Below, in pieces: positions 16,674 to 28,177 of a stretch of 35,554 nucleotides of DNA; the stretch's first letter is position 1, and each line of letters starts with the position of its first letter. Under the pieces are notes generated by a model, which ran no database searches, was not told where the DNA came from, and saw only the letters and a list, made by a program, of their open reading frames with translations. The position numbers and the translations under genes are program-made. The stretch is taken from positions 1 through 35,554 of the forward strand of contig NZ_JASAMB010000039.1 in the NCBI RefSeq assembly GCF_029948125.1. Reading direction: 5' to 3'. Source of the stretch: Catellatospora sp. KI3 (GTDB taxonomy: Bacteria > Actinomycetota > Actinomycetes > Mycobacteriales > Micromonosporaceae).

Positions 16674-16742
16674 CTGCCCCGTGAGCCGAGATGACACGTC
16701 CGGCGCGTTGCGCGGCCGCTGCCCGGCTGGCACGATGCAGTT

Positions 16743-16764
16743 CATCAATAGGCAGGTATTGATG
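16743..16764. promoter_or_regulatory. inverted repeat in front of the aromatic peptide gene
   Basis: Perfect inverted repeat CATCAATA (16743-16750), spacer GGCAGG, TATTGATG (16757-16764), just upstream of the ribosome site of the 31-residue peptide gene. It could be an operator or a leader hairpin. A weak promoter candidate is TTGCGC (16708-16713), 17 bases, CACGAT (16731-16736). Confidence 0.45.
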
Positions 16765-16777
16765 AAGGGAGGGAACC

Positions 16778-16873
16778 GTGAAGCGAGTGCTGCGTCACGT
16801 CGCGGCTCGCCTGGTGGGCAGGTCGCGGGTCAGCGGACGGTACATCTACTGGTTCTACAACTACGAGGCGTAG
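16778..16873 (+). CDS. 31-residue candidate precursor peptide of a P450-modified RiPP
   Basis: A 31-residue reading frame from GTG 16778, with a strong GAAGGGAGGG ribosome site at 16764-16773. Residues 1-21 are basic (VKRVLRHVAARLVGRSRV...GR) with seven Arg or Lys, fitting an amphipathic leader. Residues 22-31 read YIYWFYNYEA: four Tyr, one Trp and one Phe in eight positions. A cytochrome P450 gene begins 54 bases after the stop, with no other gene between. Known P450-crosslinked RiPPs have the same set-up: short leader, aromatic C-terminal core, adjacent P450. Cittilin derives from YIYY and tryptorubin from AWYIWY. The core here starts YIYW, so cross-linking between aromatic side chains is a reasonable expectation. 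Core boundaries, and whether EA is trimmed, are unknown. No signal peptide, Cys or repeats are present. Confidence 0.75.
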   Translation: MKRVLRHVAARLVGRSRVSGRYIYWFYNYEA

Positions 16874-16927
16874 GCCACGCGGCCCCCGCCGTACACGCGT
16901 GGATCCTGTGGTTTCCGGGAGGGCTGG

Positions 16928-18205
16928 ATGCCGCGAGCTGACGGACCGGCCCGGCCGCCGGGTCCGCGCGGGCACTGGCTCATGGGCAACACCCCGGCGT
17001 ACGAGGCCGACCGCATCGGCTTCCTGCGCCGCACCCACCACGAGTACGGCGACGTGTTCTCCTTCGACGAGCGGACGGTCTCCGTCGCCGACCCCGAACT
17101 CACCCATGCGGCCCTCGCCCGCACCAACAGCGGCTTCCTGACCGAGCTGCCGCCCTTCGGCAGCCGACCCGACCTCGACCGGGCCGCCGCCCAGGCCGAC
17201 GCCTGGATGCCGACGCGCCGCACCGCGTGGCCGGGGCTCAACCAGGCCGCATCCGCCGCCGCCGACGGCCGCACCGTCGAGATCCTCGACGAACTCGCCG
17301 CGGCCGCCGCCGACCGCGAGGTGGACGTCCTGCCGCTGGCGCGGGTCTTCACCGCCCGGCTGACCGCCGAGTACTGCTTCGGCCGCGACAGCGGCGGCAT
17401 CCCGGCGCTGCTCGCCGAGAACCTCGACGTCACCGAGCCGTTCACCGACGCGTCCTACCAGTTCCCGGCCTGGCTGCCGCTGCCGCGCCACCGCCGGTTG
17501 GCCCGCGTGCACCGGCGGACCGTCCAGACGCTGACCGCGACCGTACGCCGGCGCCGCGAAGCCGCGGCCGCGTCAGGGGCCGACCTGCTCGACTTCCTGC
17601 TGGAAGCCGATCCGCCGCTGCCGGACCGCACCGTGACGTCCACCCTGCGCGGCGTCATGATGGGCGGGCACGGCGTCCCGGCCGCGGCGGTCACCTCGAT
17701 CGTCCGGGAGCTGGCCCTGCGGCCGGAGTTGGCCGCCGAGCTGCGCGACGAAGCCGGAACCGGACCGGTCACGGCGCGGCTGCCGCTGGCCGAGGCGGTC
17801 GTCAAGGAGGTGCTGCGGCTCTACCCGCCAGTATGGCTGATGACCCGCACCGCGGGCGGCGCCGTCGCGCTCGGCGAGTGGACCCTGAACCCGGGCGACG
17901 AGATCCTGCTCAACCCGTACCTGATCCAGCGGGATCCGCGCTGGTGGCAGCGGCCCGACGAGTTCGACCCCGGCCGGTGGCTGGACGGGCGGACCGCGCC
18001 CCGCGCCGCGTACCTGCCGTTCGGGGCGGGTCCCCGGGTGTGCGTGGGCTCGGCGCTGGCCGTGCGGCAGCTCACCCTGACCACGTCGCGCCTGGCCCAG
18101 GCGTACGCCGTCGAGTCGTCGAACGCGGTCGGCGCCGCCCCGAGGTTCCACGGACGGCTCGCCCCGGCGGGGCTGCGCGCCCGGCTGCGGCCGGTCGCCC
18201 GCTGA
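16928..18205 (+). CDS. cytochrome P450, candidate peptide cross-linking enzyme
   Basis: A 425-residue soluble class I-type P450. Conserved parts are the K-helix EVLR (E294, R297), the PERF-like region DEFDPGRW, and the heme loop YLPFGAGPRVCVG with axial ligand C372. The I-helix reads MMGGHGVPAAAVTS (about residues 244-257): the usual acid-alcohol pair of AGxE/DTT is replaced by G249 and V250, which is odd for an O2-activating monooxygenase. ATG 16928 follows GGGAGGG at 16917-16923. The gene directly follows the aromatic 31-residue peptide and is followed by a terminator, so the pair is an operon. I infer that it forms aryl-aryl, aryl-ether or aryl-N bonds in the peptide. Redox partners would come from elsewhere. 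A stand-alone oxidase for a small molecule is the alternative. Confidence 0.9.
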   Translation: MPRADGPARPPGPRGHWLMGNTPAYEADRIGFLRRTHHEYGDVFSFDERTVSVADPELTHAALARTNSGFLTELPPFGSRPDLDRAAAQADAWMPTRRTAWPGLNQAASAAADGRTVEILDELAAAAADREVDVLPLARVFTARLTAEYCFGRDSGGIPALLAENLDVTEPFTDASYQFPAWLPLPRHRRLARVHRRTVQTLTATVRRRREAAAASGADLLDFLLEADPPLPDRTVTSTLRGVMMGGHGVPAAAVTSIVRELALRPELAAELRDEAGTGPVTARLPLAEAVVKEVLRLYPPVWLMTRTAGGAVALGEWTLNPGDEILLNPYLIQRDPRWWQRPDEFDPGRWLDGRTAPRAAYLPFGAGPRVCVGSALAVRQLTLTTSRLAQAYAVESSNAVGAAPRFHGRLAPAGLRARLRPVAR

Positions 18206-18238
18206 CAGGACTCGGTATCAGAGCATCATGAAGATTCG

Positions 18239-18273
18239 GGGAGCACTGCCAACTAAGACTTGGCAGTGCTCCC
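18239..18273 (+). terminator. terminator of the peptide/P450 operon
   Basis: Perfect 14-bp stem GGGAGCACTGCCAA (18239-18252) with 18260-18273 around a seven-base loop, 33 bases after the P450 stop. The stretch 18274-18438 holds no gene I can support. Confidence 0.8.
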
Positions 18274-18438
18274 GCTTCGCGGCTCAGTTCCATGACCTAG
18301 AACTGTCCATGCGCTCACCTGTTCAAGGCCCTTGTCGCACAACGTCCGCTGGCCGGACCTGAGCCGATGATCCCTCGGCCCAGGACTGACCGCTCGAGAT
18401 CGTGCACGTCAAGCCAGCCATACGCGCACTGACAGCAT

Positions 18439-19026
18439 TCACTGGTGCGATTGGTGACTTTCAGCACGTACCGCTCGTGGTTCCCCAGCGGTCCCCGCAG
18501 CGGTATTGGAGCTGGAGGCCTTTCGCGACTTTCGCGACCGGAGCCTATAGGCCCACACTCCCGTCCAATAACAGCCAACGAGCGCAGCGATGGCAAGAAA
18601 GGACCACTTCACGCCAGCCGGCAGAGGTGTAAGGTCCTCCGGCTGGAGGGCAACGCCGCCGTGCGCCTCGGACTGCAGATGGACTTCCATCGCACGCCCA
18701 AGAGCTTCGGGGTACCTAACGGACATAACGGTGAAGATGACAGCGACGACGGCACCTAGCCCCATGGCTCCACGAAATACAAGCCTGGCCGGGAGGTCCA
18801 GCGCATAGCTTCGCCTCCGGTCAAACTCCCTCGCGATCTGGGCGCGGGCCTCGGCGATTCCATCCGTGTCGCCAATCTTCTCCGCCGCATCCAGCCAGAC
18901 CAGATGCGCCTGAAGGCGTCGCTGCTGGCGCCAAGGAAACGTTTGGTCCAGGAGGAACTTGCCAATTGCTCCGACAAGTCCGGCGACTGTAGCGGCCGTC
19001 GCAATGTCGATCGATTCATTCCACAT
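18439..19026 (-). CDS. hypothetical membrane protein
   Basis: A 195-residue protein starting at ATG 19026 (MWNESIDIATAATVAGLVGAIG). Hydrophobic segments lie at about residues 8-25, 95-115 and 145-165. Between the first and second lies a charged helical stretch (about 30-85, QQRRLQAHLVWLDAAEKIGDTD) that may be cytoplasmic and coiled-coil-like. The C-terminus is a basic Ser/Arg tail. An earlier in-frame start at 19059 is possible. Base composition is lower in GC than the core genes, in keeping with its place at the edge of an accessory island. No family is recognised and no ribosome site is clear, so confidence is moderate. Confidence 0.55.
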   Translation of the reverse strand: MWNESIDIATAATVAGLVGAIGKFLLDQTFPWRQQRRLQAHLVWLDAAEKIGDTDGIAEARAQIAREFDRRRSYALDLPARLVFRGAMGLGAVVAVIFTVMSVRYPEALGRAMEVHLQSEAHGGVALQPEDLTPLPAGVKWSFLAIAALVGCYWTGVWAYRLRSRKSRKASSSNTAAGTAGEPRAVRAESHQSHQ

Positions 19027-19059
19027 CGGACCAGTGAAGCAGGCTGCTTCGACTCGCAC

Positions 19060-20786: not shown

Positions 20787-20892
20787 CGAGTGCCGGTGAT
20801 CGCGAGGTGTTCTCGGCACACCGCGCCTACCGGCTGGATCTTCTGCAGCAATGCCGCCATGGCCTGGCAAGATCGGCGTCGGAGGTGGCGCT

Positions 20893-21408
20893 GTGGCCCT
20901 TACCTGGATCACGTCGGCCGGCGGGCCGCTGCTCGTGGCCCCGCAGTCGGCGCTGGCGTCGTGGGCCGGTGTGATCGACACCGACCGACCGGTGGAGACG
21001 TGGGGCGACTACGGCCGCGCCTGCGCGGTCGACGGCTATACCGGCCTGATAGCCATCGGCGATCAGGAGGGCCTCGTCCTGGGCGACGAGCCCGCAATGA
21101 CGACCTACCTCGCCGAGGACCGGCTGTTCGTCCGCTGGGCCGCCGCCTACGACGAGGACGAGCTGGTGGTCGCGGCAGGTCGTCTCGTCCAAGAAGACGT
21201 CAACTGGGATGTGAGCGAAGAACTCGTCTGGGACGTGGAGGGGCCGGTCGTGTTGTTCGACTCGGCCGAGCCCGGAGCCGATCCGGAGCCCGGCAACCAT
21301 CTCGTGATCGACTTGGAGCCCGGCCAGTACCGCGTCCGCGCGACCTACCGCGCCGAGGGCCACAACCAGATGATCCTGGTACAGCTTCAGCCCACCGGGC
21401 ACCCGTAA
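20893..21408 (+). CDS. Imm21-like immunity protein
   Basis: A 171-residue acidic protein. The N-terminal WITSAGGPLLVAPQSALASW, followed by YGRACAVDGYTGLIAIG, GLVLGDEPAMTTYL and the later VEGPVVLFDSAEPG, match what I know of the Imm21 family of immunity proteins, found in polymorphic toxin loci. Such proteins bind and neutralise a specific cognate toxin in the cytoplasm. GTG 20893 is chosen for its GGAGG ribosome site at 20881-20885; an earlier in-frame ATG at 20851 adds a non-conserved stretch. No toxin gene is adjacent: the left neighbour is the broken transposase, so it is probably an orphan. It may protect against toxins of neighbours. Confidence 0.7.
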   Translation: MALTWITSAGGPLLVAPQSALASWAGVIDTDRPVETWGDYGRACAVDGYTGLIAIGDQEGLVLGDEPAMTTYLAEDRLFVRWAAAYDEDELVVAAGRLVQEDVNWDVSEELVWDVEGPVVLFDSAEPGADPEPGNHLVIDLEPGQYRVRATYRAEGHNQMILVQLQPTGHP

Positions 21409-21625: not shown

Positions 21626-24082
21626 TCATCCATCACGTCGGCACCGCTCAACCGCACGCCGCGTGGCTAATGTGGCGGCATGATCCGGCCCGAGTACCTG
21701 CTCCTGGTCGGCCAGCAGAGATAGGTAAGTAGCAAGGGCTCCATCGGGCCGTGCCGCATCCTCATACGCCTTCCCCAGATCGTTTCGGGCAAGCAGCGTG
21801 AGAGGCTCTTGCGGACCCAGATGACGCACGTGCTGCTCGAGTACGAGTTCGAGCTGATGGACCGCTGATTCCACACTGCCGGCCGCTCGGTGGGCGTTGG
21901 CGAGATACCGTGCGGTAGTCAGCGTCGCCGGATTCCCTGGCCCTAGCGCCAGCTCAAGGTCGGACAAAAGGGTTTCGAACTTTTCTACGGCGACCAGCGG
22001 AACACCAGCGGCTTGATCAGCTCGGGCCAGGTTTCCCCGAGTCGCCAGCGTGTGGGGATGCTTGGGACCGAGGGCTTCGATTTGTTCGGCGAGGATGTCG
22101 GTCAGCTCGGCACGAGCTGAGGCCACGTCACCGGCTTCAAGACGCGCCCGCGCGAGATTATGCCGAGCTACAAGAGTCGCGGGATGGGTCAGGCCTCGGT
22201 TCTGGCCCTCCTGTTGATATAGGTCTTCGAGTTCAGCTATTGCCTCCGCTAGGCGCCCGGCGTCGGCGTACGCGGCCCCCAGGAATGTACGCGTCGTGAA
22301 GATGTCGAGCTCCGTGCCGCGGGCGTCCACCAGAAGCTGCCTGAACTGAGATACGGCAATCTCTGGATTGCCGCGCAGTCGATGTGCTTCGGCGAGCATC
22401 CCCCGCACCTGCAAGGTCTCGACGCTGGTCGGGCCATGCTTGGCGGCAAATGCAGGAACAAGTCGCTCGAAATACCTCAATGCAAGCCCGATATGTCCGG
22501 CCCAACTGCATGCGAAGGCCAGATGCGCTACAAATTGGAGCGTCTTATCGTCATCAGAACCGAAGAGACCAGACGACTCCTCAACCAGGGTCTCGAACCA
22601 GCCGATCGACCGCTTGATCTCCCCTTGACCCTGCAAGTAGGTGGCGGCCCGATCTAGGAGTTCCAACGACTTCCTATCGTGCTCCTCGGTCGGAAGTCGA
22701 GCAATGAGCGCATCGATGTGGGGAATCAGCGAGGACCACAGACTCCAGCCAGAAACGTTCTGGAACGGATCGTCCGGCACCACAGCGAGGATCGAGTCGA
22801 CGGCGAGTGCTCTATGCAGCAAGGCGTCCGTGTCGCGCGCTCGGGTCACGGAGGCCACGAGAGGATGGATGGTGATGCCGGCCCCGGTGCGGCGAATCAT
22901 GTGGTACGCATTGAGTATTGCAAGGCTTCGAGCGAGATCAAGTTCATCTGCCAGCGATTGGAGTACCAGGTCGGGGAGGTCGCGGCCCCCTAGCTGAGAG
23001 ATCACGGAGATGACGCGCGATGCCAACGGGTCCTGCTCCGCGATGCGTTCCGTGGTTACGTTCCACGTCACCGCGATCGTCCGCTCGCTCGGGTCGTCGA
23101 CACTGGCGAAGGCGGCGACGCGGGCGAACTCCGCGGCAAGAAGTTCCCGGTACTGGTCAAGACTGGAACTTGGCTGCTGGGTGACGAATGCCGCAGCTTG
23201 ACCGATGGCAAGCGGCAGATCTCCGAGCACCGCAGCCAATCGATCAGCCGCTTGCCGATCGGAAGAACCCGTAAGTCGGCACAGGAGATCGACTGCCGCC
23301 GGACGCGCGAGCACGTCCAGCTCCAACGGCATCAACCCGTGCCGCTTCCAGCGCGCGACACCCACGTTCAGACGAGTTGTAATGACCAATATGCCACACT
23401 TGCGCAGTTCGGCCAACACGTCGGCTACATCGTCCAGCCGATCTACGTTGTCCAGCACCAACGTCCAGCGATCATGCGTGCGGAGCCAGTTGATCGACCA
23501 CGCTGCTGCGGACGCATCCGTGGTCCGAGGGTTCGAACGAAGACGACGAGCCAGAGCCGCGAGACCGCTGCGGACTTCTCCGGCGGTCTGGGAGTTGATC
23601 CACCAGACCACTTGGTGTCTTCCACGCATCGTATGCGCCCACTGAAGGGCCAATTCCGTCTTGCCGACACCACCGAGACCATGCACGGCAACGTGCCCGT
23701 TCTCCGCCGTGAAGCGGGCAAGCGTGTCGACGCTCCCCCCGACGTATACGGCCGATTCGCCAGGCAGATTGTGCAGACAGCCGACCTCCGCAACCTCCAG
23801 TTTCGCTGTGCGCTCGGCCTTTTCTGCCCGATCGCGCAGCCTCATGAACTTGGCCCGCATATTGAGATCCGTTGGGAGCGCGTTCAAGATCTTGTCAAGT
23901 GCATCGGCCGACGGCAGCCGCGTGCCGTTCAAATAGTCATAGATGCTGGATTTTTTGTATCCGGTGGCCTTGACAAGCGCGTCAACGGTGCGTGGGGCAG
24001 TTGGATCATATCTGCGCGCGTGTGTGAAGTAACTGCTGAGTGCTTCGTGAAACAGCGGCTCTTCGAACAGCGGCTCTTCCAT
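21626..24082 (-). CDS. HTH/NB-ARC/TPR protein (STAND NTPase)
   Basis: An 818-residue protein with three parts. Residues about 30-62 are an XRE-like helix-turn-helix (VDALVKATGYKKSSIYDYLNGTRLP). Residues 115-400 form an NB-ARC ATPase: P-loop HGLGGVGKTE with K141, Walker B WTLVLDNVD with D211, sensor ILVITTR, and the GLPL-like GDLPLAIGQAAAF. Residues about 480-810 are TPR repeats of the NPxTL/HPxTL-type (for example GPKHPHTLATRGNLARA and GPGNPATLTTARYLANA). STAND proteins of this type are signal-sensing switches; in actinomycetes they act as regulators, and related NTPases act in phage defence. ATG 24080-24082 is the start; the ribosome site is weak. Lower GC than flanking core genes suggests horizontal acquisition. 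Confidence 0.85.
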   Translation of the reverse strand: MEEPLFEEPLFHEALSSYFTHARRYDPTAPRTVDALVKATGYKKSSIYDYLNGTRLPSADALDKILNALPTDLNMRAKFMRLRDRAEKAERTAKLEVAEVGCLHNLPGESAVYVGGSVDTLARFTAENGHVAVHGLGGVGKTELALQWAHTMRGRHQVVWWINSQTAGEVRSGLAALARRLRSNPRTTDASAAAWSINWLRTHDRWTLVLDNVDRLDDVADVLAELRKCGILVITTRLNVGVARWKRHGLMPLELDVLARPAAVDLLCRLTGSSDRQAADRLAAVLGDLPLAIGQAAAFVTQQPSSSLDQYRELLAAEFARVAAFASVDDPSERTIAVTWNVTTERIAEQDPLASRVISVISQLGGRDLPDLVLQSLADELDLARSLAILNAYHMIRRTGAGITIHPLVASVTRARDTDALLHRALAVDSILAVVPDDPFQNVSGWSLWSSLIPHIDALIARLPTEEHDRKSLELLDRAATYLQGQGEIKRSIGWFETLVEESSGLFGSDDDKTLQFVAHLAFACSWAGHIGLALRYFERLVPAFAAKHGPTSVETLQVRGMLAEAHRLRGNPEIAVSQFRQLLVDARGTELDIFTTRTFLGAAYADAGRLAEAIAELEDLYQQEGQNRGLTHPATLVARHNLARARLEAGDVASARAELTDILAEQIEALGPKHPHTLATRGNLARADQAAGVPLVAVEKFETLLSDLELALGPGNPATLTTARYLANAHRAAGSVESAVHQLELVLEQHVRHLGPQEPLTLLARNDLGKAYEDAARPDGALATYLSLLADQEQVLGPDHAATLATRRAVERCRRDG
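24051..24080 (-). repeat. 15-bp tandem duplication at start of STAND gene
   Basis: AACAGCGGCTCTTCG (24051-24065) is repeated as AACAGCGGCTCTTCC (24066-24080), giving a doubled EEPLF at residues 2-11. It lengthens the N-terminus by five residues and lies before the HTH. Confidence 0.85.
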
Positions 24083-25018: not shown

Positions 25019-25046
25019 TTGACATCGCCGAATATTCACTTATGCC
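25019..25046 (+). promoter_or_regulatory. candidate promoter of the dual protease gene
   Basis: Perfect TTGACA (25019-25024), 16-base spacer, TATGCC (25041-25046). The -10 is partial. It would give a leader of about 95 bases before ATG 25145. The rest of 24811-25144 shows no gene. Confidence 0.4.
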
Positions 25047-25144
25047 TCCGGCCCAGCGAAGCGCGGGCCTACCTTGTCGGCACCCTGTCCACCGGCTTCG
25101 ACGGCGGTACGACGCGCCGCGGAGCCGCATCCCCGGGAGGCACC

Positions 25145-28100
25145 ATGCCCACAAGGCGAACATCGCTGCTCACAGCCACGGCTACGGCTGTGCTGACCGT
25201 CCTGGCGTCGGCCCTGCCCGCCGCGGCGGCCGAGCCGGAAGGCGTAGTCCGGCACGCGGCGAAACATCCCGTGCCGGGCGTCTACCTGGTCACGTTCAAG
25301 GATCAGGCCGTGGCTAAATCGGACGCGGCGCAGACGACCCGGTCGCTGACCGCCCGCTACGGCGGCAAGGCCACCCACGTGCTCGACACCGTCATGCGCG
25401 GCTTCGTCGCCGAGGACCTGACCGAGCAGCAGGCCCGGCGGCTGGCGGCCAACCCGAGCGTCGCGTCGGTGACCCAGTCGGGCACGTCCCGGGCCGCCGA
25501 GACCCAGGACAACCCGGCCAACTGGGGCCTGGACCGCATCGACCAGCGGAATCTGCCGCTGGACAGGAAGTACGCCTACCCCGCGGACGGCGCGGGTGTG
25601 AACATCTACATCGTCGACACCGGCATCCGCTACACCCACCAGGAGTTCGAGGGGCGCGCCAAGTACGCCGCCGACTTCGTCGTGCCGAGCACCAACGGCG
25701 AGGACTGCGACAGCGCCAAGCAGGGCCACGGCACGCACGTCTCCGGCATCGCGGCTGGCCGAACGCGCGGCGTGGCCAAGAAGGCCAACCTGTGGTCCGT
25801 ACGCATCCTCGGCTGTCAGTCCACCGGCAAGGACACCGACATCGTCGTGGCCGCCGACTGGATCGCCAGGAACGCCAGGAAGCCCGCGGTGGTCAACATG
25901 AGCGTGTACGCCGACGACCCCGCCATCGGCGTCGACGCCATCAAGGGCGCCGTCGCCGCCGGTGTGCAGTGGTCGCTGATCACTGGCAACAACGGCGGCA
26001 ACGCCTGCGACTACGGCCCGGGCAGCCGGGTCGAGGCCGCGGTTCGGGTCGCGAACGCGACCAGCTCCGATCAGCGGGCCGGCGACTCCAACGACGGGCC
26101 GTGCACCGATCTGTTCGCACCGGGCAGCTCGATCGACTCGTCGGTCAACACCTCCGACACCGCGTACGGCCAGAAGTCCGGAACGTCGATGGCCGCGCCG
26201 CATGTGGCCGGCGCGATGGCGATCAGGCTGTCGCAGGATCCCACCGCGAGCCCGGCGGACCTGAAGAAGTGGATCATCGACAACGCCACGACCGGCAAGA
26301 TGACCAACATCCGCACGGGTACCCCCAACCGGCTGCTCTACCTCCCCAGCACACCGGCGCCGGCCGACGACTTCTCCCTGTCGGCCAGCCCGTCGTCGGT
26401 CAGTGTCGACCCGGGCCAGTCGGTGACCACCACGATCAGCACGGCGGTCACCAAGGGCAGCGCCCAGACCGTGACGCTGTCCGCGACCGGCCTGCCGACC
26501 GGCGTCACCGCGTCGTTCAACCCGTCGTCGGTCACCGCGGGCGGATCATCCACCTTGACCCTGGCCGCCTCCTCGTCGGCTGGCCCCGGCACCTCGACCG
26601 TCACGGTCACCGGCACCGGCACCAGCGCCAGCCATGCCGTGAACGTGGGTCTGACGGTCAACGGGACGGGACCGACCGACTTCTCGTTGAGCGCGAGCCC
26701 GGCGGCCGGATCGGTCGGTGCGGGCGGCACGCTGTCGACCACGATCAGCGCCACCAGCGCCCTCACCGGTGGCGGGAGCACGGGCGGCACCTCGGGCACC
26801 GGTTCCGGACCGGCCGTGGTGAACGGCACGCCCACCACGGTGGCGAAGTACCCGTTCGTCATCTCGCAGCACCGCACCGGTGGTGCACGGCCGCAGGAGC
26901 AGTCGTGCACCGGCTCGGTCGTGGCGCCGCGAGCGGTGCTGATCGCGGCGCACTGCAAGTTCGCCCAGGGCGACCCGAAGTACCTGGTCTACGGGCGCGA
27001 CGACCTCGCCGACACCGCCACCGGCACCCGGATCGAGATCGCCGAGTACCGGGTCCACCCCGGCTACAGCCCGCAGGACGGCACCGGTTGGCGCAACGGA
27101 AACGACGTGGCGGTCATCTTCACCAGGACCGACATCCCCGTCCCAGCGGGGATGGCGTTCCCGGCGATCGCCTCCTCCGCGGACAGCCTGGCGCTGGGCA
27201 CTCGGGGCACCGCGCTCGGATACGGCAAGACCGAATCGGACGACAGCGGCCGCAACACCAGGCTGCGCGAGACGATCCTGCCGGTGGTCGACGGCCAGAA
27301 CTGCGAGAACATCGACTCGACTTTCACCTCGGACACGATGTTCTGCGACGGCTACGGCGACGGCAGCACCAGCCTGTGCCAGGGCGACTCCGGTGGTCCG
27401 TACTACTACAACGGCAAGATCTACGGCGTCTTCTCCTGGCTGCGGACCGACTGCCGCTATTACAACGTCCACGGCAAGCTGTGGAGCGCGATGGGCGACT
27501 GGGCCAACGAGCAGATCGGCACCACCCCGCCGCAGCCGCCGACCGCCGACATCACGCTGTCGGCCAGCGGCCTGCCCGCCGGCACCGCGGCGACCTTCAA
27601 CCCCACGAAGATCGCCAGCGGGGGCAGCAGCACCCTCACCCTCACGACCTCGGCCGGCACCCCGGCCGGCACGTACCAGATCACCGTCACCGGCACCCGT
27701 GGCAGCGCGGCCCGCACGACCACGTACACCCTGACCGTGCAGACGGCGCCGCCGACGTCCGACGGCATCGCCAACGGCGGATTCGAGACCGGCAGCCTCA
27801 GCGGTTGGTCGGCCACCGGCACCACCGCCGCCGTCAGCCCCGGCCGTACCGGCAGCTACGCGGCGAAGATCGGCGGAGCGGGCGGCATCTCCTCGATCAG
27901 CCAGACGTTCACCGTTCCGACCGGCCGGACCTCGGCTTCGCTGTACTTCAAGGAGTCCGGCTGCCCGTCCGCATTCGGTGACTTCACCACGGTCTCACTG
28001 ACCGACAGCACCACCGGGTACACCCAGAACCTGGTCTACCGGTACTGCTCCAACTCCAGCTCCTGGACGAAGGGCAGTGCGTACGTCACGGCCGGGCACA

Positions 28101-28177
28101 CCTACACCCTGAAGATCGAGCACAGCAACTCCACCGGCGCCTCGGTCCTGACGGCGGACGACGTCACGCTCTCCTGA
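25145..28177 (+). CDS. secreted dual protease: S8 subtilisin plus S1 trypsin
   Basis: A 1,010-residue secreted protein; ATG 25145 follows GGGAGG. Order: signal peptide (1-30, ending PAAAA); I9-type propeptide (about 45-115, VYLVTFKDQAV...); S8 subtilase with D158 (VDTGI), H195 (GHGTHVSG), oxyanion N282 and S348 (GTSMAAPHVAG); an Ig-like repeat starting DFSLSASP (about 415); a second repeat starting the same way (about 517) that is interrupted by a complete S1 trypsin domain, with H603 (AAHC), D654 (NDVAV) and S749 (GDSGGP); the rest of the Ig repeat (ITLSASGLPAGTAATFNP...); and a C-terminal jelly-roll-like domain (about 872-1010, NGGFETGSLSGW...). Both catalytic triads look complete. It would act outside the cell on proteins. 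The S1 domain may be activated by the S8 domain; that is inference. Confidence 0.9.
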   Translation: MPTRRTSLLTATATAVLTVLASALPAAAAEPEGVVRHAAKHPVPGVYLVTFKDQAVAKSDAAQTTRSLTARYGGKATHVLDTVMRGFVAEDLTEQQARRLAANPSVASVTQSGTSRAAETQDNPANWGLDRIDQRNLPLDRKYAYPADGAGVNIYIVDTGIRYTHQEFEGRAKYAADFVVPSTNGEDCDSAKQGHGTHVSGIAAGRTRGVAKKANLWSVRILGCQSTGKDTDIVVAADWIARNARKPAVVNMSVYADDPAIGVDAIKGAVAAGVQWSLITGNNGGNACDYGPGSRVEAAVRVANATSSDQRAGDSNDGPCTDLFAPGSSIDSSVNTSDTAYGQKSGTSMAAPHVAGAMAIRLSQDPTASPADLKKWIIDNATTGKMTNIRTGTPNRLLYLPSTPAPADDFSLSASPSSVSVDPGQSVTTTISTAVTKGSAQTVTLSATGLPTGVTASFNPSSVTAGGSSTLTLAASSSAGPGTSTVTVTGTGTSASHAVNVGLTVNGTGPTDFSLSASPAAGSVGAGGTLSTTISATSALTGGGSTGGTSGTGSGPAVVNGTPTTVAKYPFVISQHRTGGARPQEQSCTGSVVAPRAVLIAAHCKFAQGDPKYLVYGRDDLADTATGTRIEIAEYRVHPGYSPQDGTGWRNGNDVAVIFTRTDIPVPAGMAFPAIASSADSLALGTRGTALGYGKTESDDSGRNTRLRETILPVVDGQNCENIDSTFTSDTMFCDGYGDGSTSLCQGDSGGPYYYNGKIYGVFSWLRTDCRYYNVHGKLWSAMGDWANEQIGTTPPQPPTADITLSASGLPAGTAATFNPTKIASGGSSTLTLTTSAGTPAGTYQITVTGTRGSAARTTTYTLTVQTAPPTSDGIANGGFETGSLSGWSATGTTAAVSPGRTGSYAAKIGGAGGISSISQTFTVPTGRTSASLYFKESGCPSAFGDFTTVSLTDSTTGYTQNLVYRYCSNSSSWTKGSAYVTAGHTYTLKIEHSNSTGASVLTADDVTLS

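Follow-up and report, generated by a model that had tools for sequence, protein, structure and literature searches.

In cittilins, a core of the sequence YIYY is closed by coupling between residues i and i + 2. In Myxococcus, these compounds derive from a 27-residue precursor on which the P450 CitB acts, yielding a bridged tetrapeptide with two links; the myxobacterial clusters include an adjacent methyltransferase, whereas, according to the available part of this source, the clusters of other bacteria come without a methyltransferase gene for these classes (PMC8708641). Related chemistry is described in the accessible portions of several further papers. The P450 ApyO couples Tyr(i) to Tyr(i + 2) in Tyr-Leu-Tyr, needs an upstream Arg or Lys and accepts a C-terminal 10-mer (PMC13192836), and links between Tyr(i) and Trp(i + 2) occur in lapparbin, micitide 982 and pseudosporamide (PMC11002830, PMC7277628, PMC13250620). 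Biarylitides have a precursor of five residues with aromatics at positions 3 and 5 (PMC13417212), and atropopeptides need a KSLK-type leader motif (KSLK, RSLK, ESLK, KSRK, KPLK or PSLK) together with Trp2 of the core (PMC11450843). A published survey comprises 1,057 P450-RiPP clusters in 11 categories and, in the portions available, terms shandoamide, the syrinamides and citreamide 'cittilin-type' (PMC12299652, PMC12352619).

The locus described here lies in Catellatospora sp. KI3 (genome of 8.2 Mb; GCF_029948125.1, contig NZ_JASAMB010000039.1, positions 1 to 35,554, forward strand); this whole stretch of 35,554 nt is referred to as the window. A peptide gene on the plus strand (16778..16873) starts with GTG and encodes 31 amino acids, MKRVLRHVAARLVGRSRVSGRYIYWFYNYEA, in a frame that is conserved in relatives. 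It is preceded by a plausible ribosome-binding site, GGGAGGG (16767..16773, plus strand, read directly from the DNA), and 54 bases separate its stop from the start of a gene for a cytochrome P450 of 425 aa (16928..18205, plus strand; Pfam p450, 167 bits). An earlier note on this DNA had proposed the short frame with its ribosome site and the ending YIYWFYNYEA, as well as the P450 54 bases further on with its end at 18205; all of these were confirmed by reading. The peptide comprises a leader region (residues 1-21, 16778..16840, plus strand) and a core region (residues 22-31, YIYWFYNYEA, 16841..16870, plus strand) with the conserved aromatics Tyr22, Tyr24 and Trp25, the boundary between the two being a predicted one. 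Six of the eight residues from Tyr22 to Tyr29 are aromatic, as had been counted before, and among the 336 short frames of the window (15-70 aa, all six frames) this peptide is the only one with six of eight Y, W or F near its end.

The comparison with cittilins made by the earlier note is apt. Both systems combine a short precursor (27 versus 31 aa) with one P450, and both cores are of the type Tyr-x-Tyr-aromatic (YIYY versus YIYW), a likeness that concerns the precursor and the layout. Unlike cittilin, the Catellatospora core has Trp in place of the fourth Tyr, and a tail of six residues follows Tyr-x-Tyr-Trp. No methyltransferase was recognized beside the locus, where a carboxylase lies upstream and a gene without a family match (18439-19059) downstream.

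Upstream of the peptide gene, direct reading revealed a promoter-like pair, TTGCGC - 17 nt - CACGAT (16708..16736, plus strand), which would serve as its promoter. A similar TTG... / ...ACGAT or ACCAT pair was seen by eye 5' of the peptide in many relatives; a consensus promoter scan did not report the TTGCGC/CACGAT pair. A perfect 10-bp inverted repeat, TTCATCAATA-N6-TATTGATGAA (16741..16766, no strand assigned), is placed between this pair and the ribosome site and is possibly an operator or a hairpin of the 5'-UTR. It is the sole copy in the window, was found in none of 100 shuffles, and a scan of the genome that allowed up to three mismatches found no second copy. When 48 loci were compared, L012 and L014 had a shorter form of 7 bp in a comparable location, six further loci had repeats of 7-9 bp located elsewhere, and the remaining 39 had none. 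On the 3' side of the P450 gene there is a perfect, terminator-like hairpin of 14 bp (18239..18273, plus strand), and the fold of the region 18206-18290 has a z value of -3.8. The terminator that had been placed there is thus matched by a perfect hairpin, which has no T-run and was not called by a terminator scan.

The 5' neighbor of the locus is a carboxylase of 1,830 residues, followed by a terminator-like hairpin of its own. The next gene taken as real 3' of the P450 (18439-19059, minus strand) has no match in Pfam or NCBIfam, and none of the window's neighbor genes has a match in any other locus compared. Frames within 1.5 kb are common to sister loci only; the exceptions are a gene for a TPR protein in one subclade and two stray pairs (L034/L051 and L036/L056) at non-matching places. 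The flanks compared contain no transporter or tailoring gene common to the relatives, and therefore the P450 together with host functions probably suffices. Further away in the window, an FxSxx-COOH system tetratricopeptide repeat protein is encoded at 21626-24082 on the minus strand (NF040586, 314.5 bits, cut-off 300); no frames ending in FxSxx were found between 18000 and 28000. A member of the Imm21 (Immunity protein 21) family (Pfam; 20851-21405, plus strand) overlaps the start of an opposite-strand DDE endonuclease frame, and a long frame that resembles a secreted protease (25019-28177, plus strand) contains, by eye, a part resembling subtilisin and, after it, one resembling trypsin, along with recurring Ig-like stretches, and has weak family matches only.

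Relatives of the P450 were collected from the genus of the window (6 of 11 genomes), its family (32 of 354 genomes at E 1e-55, five candidates scored per genome), Streptomyces (7 of 392 at 1e-70, four candidates scored per genome), a Nonomuraea-like genus (13 of 54), the family of that genus (4 of 200), and named genomes (three loci). Because only some candidates per genome were scored, the resulting prevalences are lower bounds: such a P450 is present in at least 21 of 354 Micromonosporaceae, at least 6 of 392 Streptomyces and at least 10 of 54 genomes of the Nonomuraea-like genus. An order-level search of 21 genomes found the window's own copy alone, a search of three genomes aimed at Saccharothrix gave no match, and a class-level search of 394 genomes, which with four scored candidates per genome does not amount to a prevalence, found the window and one other.

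At all 37 non-duplicate loci with a P450 identity of at least 46% (identity of the best segment; L013, L015 and L045 were dropped as duplicates before counting), a matching precursor is found no more than 320 nt upstream, in which the leader is shared and the core has the form Y-x-[Y/W]-W; the distance between peptide and P450 ranges from 5 to 175 nt. The earlier note had proposed such a conserved two-gene P450-RiPP cassette and had named P450 homologues without the peptide, or a broken frame in close relatives, as the findings that would speak against it; both were looked for, and the proposal stood, as judged by conservation in all 37 loci. The pattern was found in none of 100 shuffle rounds (mean 0, maximum 0) and not on the antisense strand, and, as it was built from the same precursors, the shuffles show the rarity of chance matches rather than an advance prediction. 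Three downstream matches in the pattern control are second precursors of L025-L027. None of seven other P450 loci of the same genome has the precursor pattern; three of these were only partly matched, so that their true upstream region was perhaps not read, which leaves four full controls.

Below 46% identity, the pattern is present in 8 of 14 loci, including L050 (45.9%), which is of the Y-x-Y-W type, and four more (L033, L037, L038 and L051) have another short upstream peptide, as judged by eye. Altogether, 45 of 51 loci are recognized by the pattern and 49 of 51 when the four judged by eye are added. The short peptides upstream of L033, L036, L037, L038 and L051, for example ...AGRNQWPPEHFYG, ...SGAYLYIPTICERPGWPGSKTDDL, ...EVSGAYSGPYAVEAKCG, ...RTSGAYLYVPKICR and ...AVAGFYKY, are possibly further precursor types. 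The only two of the 51 loci without a recognized upstream peptide, L039 and L040, also lack the heme Cys: their heme loop reads PFGAGPGSRLSARLG, with the ligand Cys missing, and enzyme and substrate may have been lost together. As many soil actinobacteria retain both genes side by side, the product is very probably a small cross-linked peptide of a type with which chemists are already familiar.

The pattern was derived from the same loci, and therefore a comparison of identity and constraint carries more weight than the pattern count. In 13 pairs picked by us, DNA identity was 67-85% for the precursor gene and 73-86% for the P450 gene (first 600 nt), versus 43-67% for the intergenic gap, 47-76% for the 80 nt upstream and 51-57% for the 200 nt after the P450. 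The precursor gene is conserved to the same degree as the P450 gene; the surrounding DNA is not. The pooled pairwise dN/dS of 36 distinct sequences is 0.37, with 0.41 for the leader, 0.19 for the SGR triplet and 0.48 for the core. By this measure, constraint is no stronger on the core than on the leader, which counts against the explanation favored below.

Position counts were obtained for 33 distinct precursors from 40 loci, read directly from the DNA. Tyr22 and Trp25 are invariant, and position 24 is Tyr in 30 and Trp in three of the precursors. Positions 23 (P, I, T, E, D, L, G or S) and 29 are free, P, F, Y, N, L or A occurs at position 26, and position 27 is occupied by Tyr in 27 precursors, by Phe in four and otherwise by Ile or His. 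In the leader, R6 and G14 are invariant, R or K occupies position 15 and SGR stands ahead of the core, with R or K directly before the core in 28 of the 33 precursors. On these counts, the reacting set is likely to consist of Tyr22, Tyr/Trp24 and Trp25, and position 27 is a possible third partner in some branches. Across the family, half of the window's six aromatics are not fixed. The suggestion that all six take part as a set in cross-links was therefore not upheld (positions 26 and 29 vary, and 31 of the 33 precursors have Tyr or Phe at position 27); with Tyr22, Tyr/Trp24 and Trp25 as the only fixed aromatics, a cittilin-like ring system on Tyr-x-Tyr-Trp is favored over links among all six.

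The precursor gene is rarely annotated and easily missed, as the earlier note had suspected. A search of 5.8 billion predicted proteins matched three clusters, all Catellatospora-like; the query was a 47-residue in-frame extension of the C. paridis copy, and such a search finds only relatives that share exact 5-residue words.

The heme motif of the window's P450, FGAGPRVCVG, is complete. In its I-helix, GGHGVP replaces [AG]x(H/Q)ET, which four other P450s of the same genome keep. G249 and P251 are present in all 82 aligned P450s, and the usual acid-threonine pair is absent from all 82. This pair is also lost in some phenol-coupling P450s, and by this analogy its loss agrees more with phenol oxidation and coupling than with hydroxylation. 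The distant L051, outside the 82 aligned, retains an E..T-like I-helix, and this counts against the favored explanation. The best curated P450 family is ApyO, at 127 bits and thus far below its cut-off of 525. An AlphaFold2 model of the P450 alone has a mean pLDDT of 88.6, and the nearest solved folds among the best 50 matches listed are CYP184A1 and BM3, with a TM score of about 0.8; as these are general P450s, the fold match says no more than membership of the P450s. In a model of the read-through chain (peptide, 18 residues, P450), peptide residues 1-30 have a pLDDT of 41-49 with a tentative helix at residues 2-13, and this fusion model gave no confident placement of the peptide on the P450 and does not support docking.

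In a tree of 64 P450s, the core type of the precursor follows the P450 subclade. Cores of the type YxYW-(F/L)Y are found in Catellatospora, Micromonospora and one Polymorphospora-like genome, YIYW-PY cores in Solwaraspora-like genomes and one Micromonospora, Y(E/D)WW-YY in three Solwaraspora-like genomes and mostly YxYW-PY in Streptomyces and Nonomuraea-like genomes, while GGxYxYWN(F/I)F cores span three families. The whole Y-x-Y-W group (47 rows) has a support of 99/96; the neighboring G-R-Y-x-W group is a weaker fork (93/94, drawn open), and several distant rows sit on long branches. The distant relatives, with P450 identities of 34-43%, have Y-x-W or Y-x-Y cores (GGRYPWIP, AGRYPWRH, SGAYLYIP, SGAYLYVP), mostly Tyr-x-Trp. 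The Solwaraspora-like loci L025-L027 have a diverged first precursor, Y(E/D)WWYYHQA, and a second, canonical one, Y(I/M)YWPYHYE, which ends 168 nt past the P450; at the threshold used, a single P450 of this family is present in each of these genomes, the exception being G306, with the same match on two contigs. In L031, L050, L054, L055 and L056, a gene for a TPR protein lies on the minus strand 3' of the P450 and accompanies the GGxYxYWN subclade across its three families. We take this protein to resemble the TPR part of an AfsR-type regulator, and it is possibly a regulator of the pathway.

The P450s of Saccharothrix syringae (P0071) and Catellatospora citrea fall into the Y-x-Y-W clade. Going by the names, we would guess that the former is the source of the syrinamides and the latter that of citreamide. 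In the accessible portions of the survey, the 'cittilin-type' shandoamide, syrinamides and citreamide are, like the peptide described here, P450-RiPPs with several conserved aromatics that were found by pairing P450s with short peptides, and the 1,057 clusters may already cover this class. Among the papers listed by literature searches, none was seen to name this precursor, and 'YPYW' does not occur in the 20 papers of one listing, a result that carries no claim of absence from print.

Judged by the available parts of their sources, other described classes agree with the locus in single features. The Tyr-x-Trp motif of lapparbin, micitide and pseudosporamide equals the cores paired with distant P450 relatives (GGRYPWIP, AGRYPWRH), a likeness that concerns the cores, and pseudosporamide shares the host family Micromonosporaceae; the window's core, Tyr-Ile-Tyr-Trp, does not have the Tyr(i)-x-Trp(i + 2) form of lapparbin and micitide. 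The Arg or Lys that ApyO needs N-terminal to its motif has its counterpart in the R or K ahead of the core. We rejected an assignment to the aminopyruvatides: no MNIO, B12-radical-SAM or methyltransferase was found among the chosen window proteins scanned, and the peptide ends in Glu-Ala, not Asp. The biarylitides, with which the earlier note had also compared the locus, were rejected on precursor length. Rubrin was considered because 'Pru' might be the initials of Polymorphospora rubra, a species with a P450 (P0017) in the clade. It was rejected since its link is Trp(i)-Tyr(i + 3), as far as the source was available, whereas the nearest locus, L021 (YPYWFYNYQ), has no Trp-x-x-Tyr.

By sequence comparison, the locus can be regarded as a real, well-supported two-gene P450-RiPP family of an already known kind. 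We consider it probable that it is a minimal P450-modified RiPP cassette of a Catellatospora-group actinomycete, consisting of the 31-residue precursor and a P450 that acts on it. Conservation as neighbors does not prove the pairing of enzyme and substrate, and that the P450 acts on the peptide is what we infer from sequence. The short frame might instead be a regulatory leader peptide that controls translation of the P450, as it stands directly 5' of the gene, 5-175 nt away, and the inverted repeat lies ahead of it in the window. The constraint on the amino acids (dN/dS 0.37), the widely varying spacing with a gap sequence that is not conserved, and the second copies 3' of the P450 in L025-L027 make this very improbable, and we rejected it on account of the downstream copies and the constraint. 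Still less probable is a member of the tryptorubin family of atropopeptides. These have the same two-gene layout, an aromatic C-terminus and a P450 that cross-links aromatics; however, by the definition in the available part of PMC11450843, the peptide has neither precursor feature: a KSLK-type motif is absent, and core position 2 is not Trp, the core starting with Y22-x-[Y/W]-W. The atropopeptide assignment was rejected, and the likeness to tryptorubin drawn in the earlier note did not hold.

More weight is due to alternatives that accept the cassette and differ in its chemistry. That the P450 performs another reaction on the peptide (hydroxylation, backbone or side-chain N-cyclization, or nitration) is unlikely. 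From what is available of the respective sources, RufO, a RiPP P450, nitrates and SroB adds hydroxylation and C-N bonds, which shows that such reactions occur; the fixed Tyr-x-Tyr/Trp spacing, however, fits coupling, and so does the loss of the acid-threonine pair, which by general enzymology speaks against ordinary monooxygenation. A more serious competitor, possible though clearly behind the favored explanation, is that the same cassette forms one ring only (Tyr22-Tyr24, or Tyr22/24 to Trp25), with Trp25 and the tail serving recognition. Distant relatives have cores with one obvious pair, and the P450s ApyO (PMC13192836) and that of the biarylitides (PMC13417212) form a single link, according to the parts available. 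However, Trp25 is invariant in 33 distinct precursors, which is stronger than recognition alone suggests, and CitB, in the accessible text, forms two links in a tetrapeptide (PMC8708641).

In the favored explanation, the leader, which is basic and probably helical, would position the precursor on the P450 by its RHxxARLxG...SGR residues, so that the heme pocket could take in the stretch Tyr22-Ile23-Tyr24-Trp25. The P450 would oxidize Tyr22 and Tyr24 and couple both, that is, residues i and i + 2, and Trp25 would join in a second coupling, yielding a cittilin-like bicycle in which the fourth Tyr is replaced by Trp; the sole basis for this second link is the invariance of Trp25. Each coupling would take away two hydrogens, and a protease not encoded at the locus would free the product, perhaps near Arg21. 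A more far-reaching joint reading is tentative, and we rate it as rather doubtful: a P450-RiPP subfamily, beside one-ring Tyr-x-Trp and Tyr-x-Tyr lineages, in which one enzyme joins Tyr22 to Tyr24 and forms a further bond to Trp25, so that a cittilin-like bicycle containing Trp results; the Catellatospora/Micromonospora branch would add a third link, to Tyr27, and one Solwaraspora-like P450 would serve two diverged precursors.

The family represents a compact, genetically minimal source of rigid aromatic cyclic peptides, the precursors of which are easily missed: 33 distinct ones were read from DNA, versus three clusters, all near the query, in the protein database search. It offers a natural series of Tyr-x-Trp, Tyr-x-Tyr and Tyr-x-Tyr-Trp on one P450 tree, through which changes in the enzyme could be related to how many cross-links form and where. 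If the joint reading is true, the way in which a macrocyclase came to make a second coupling would be preserved in the P450 tree.
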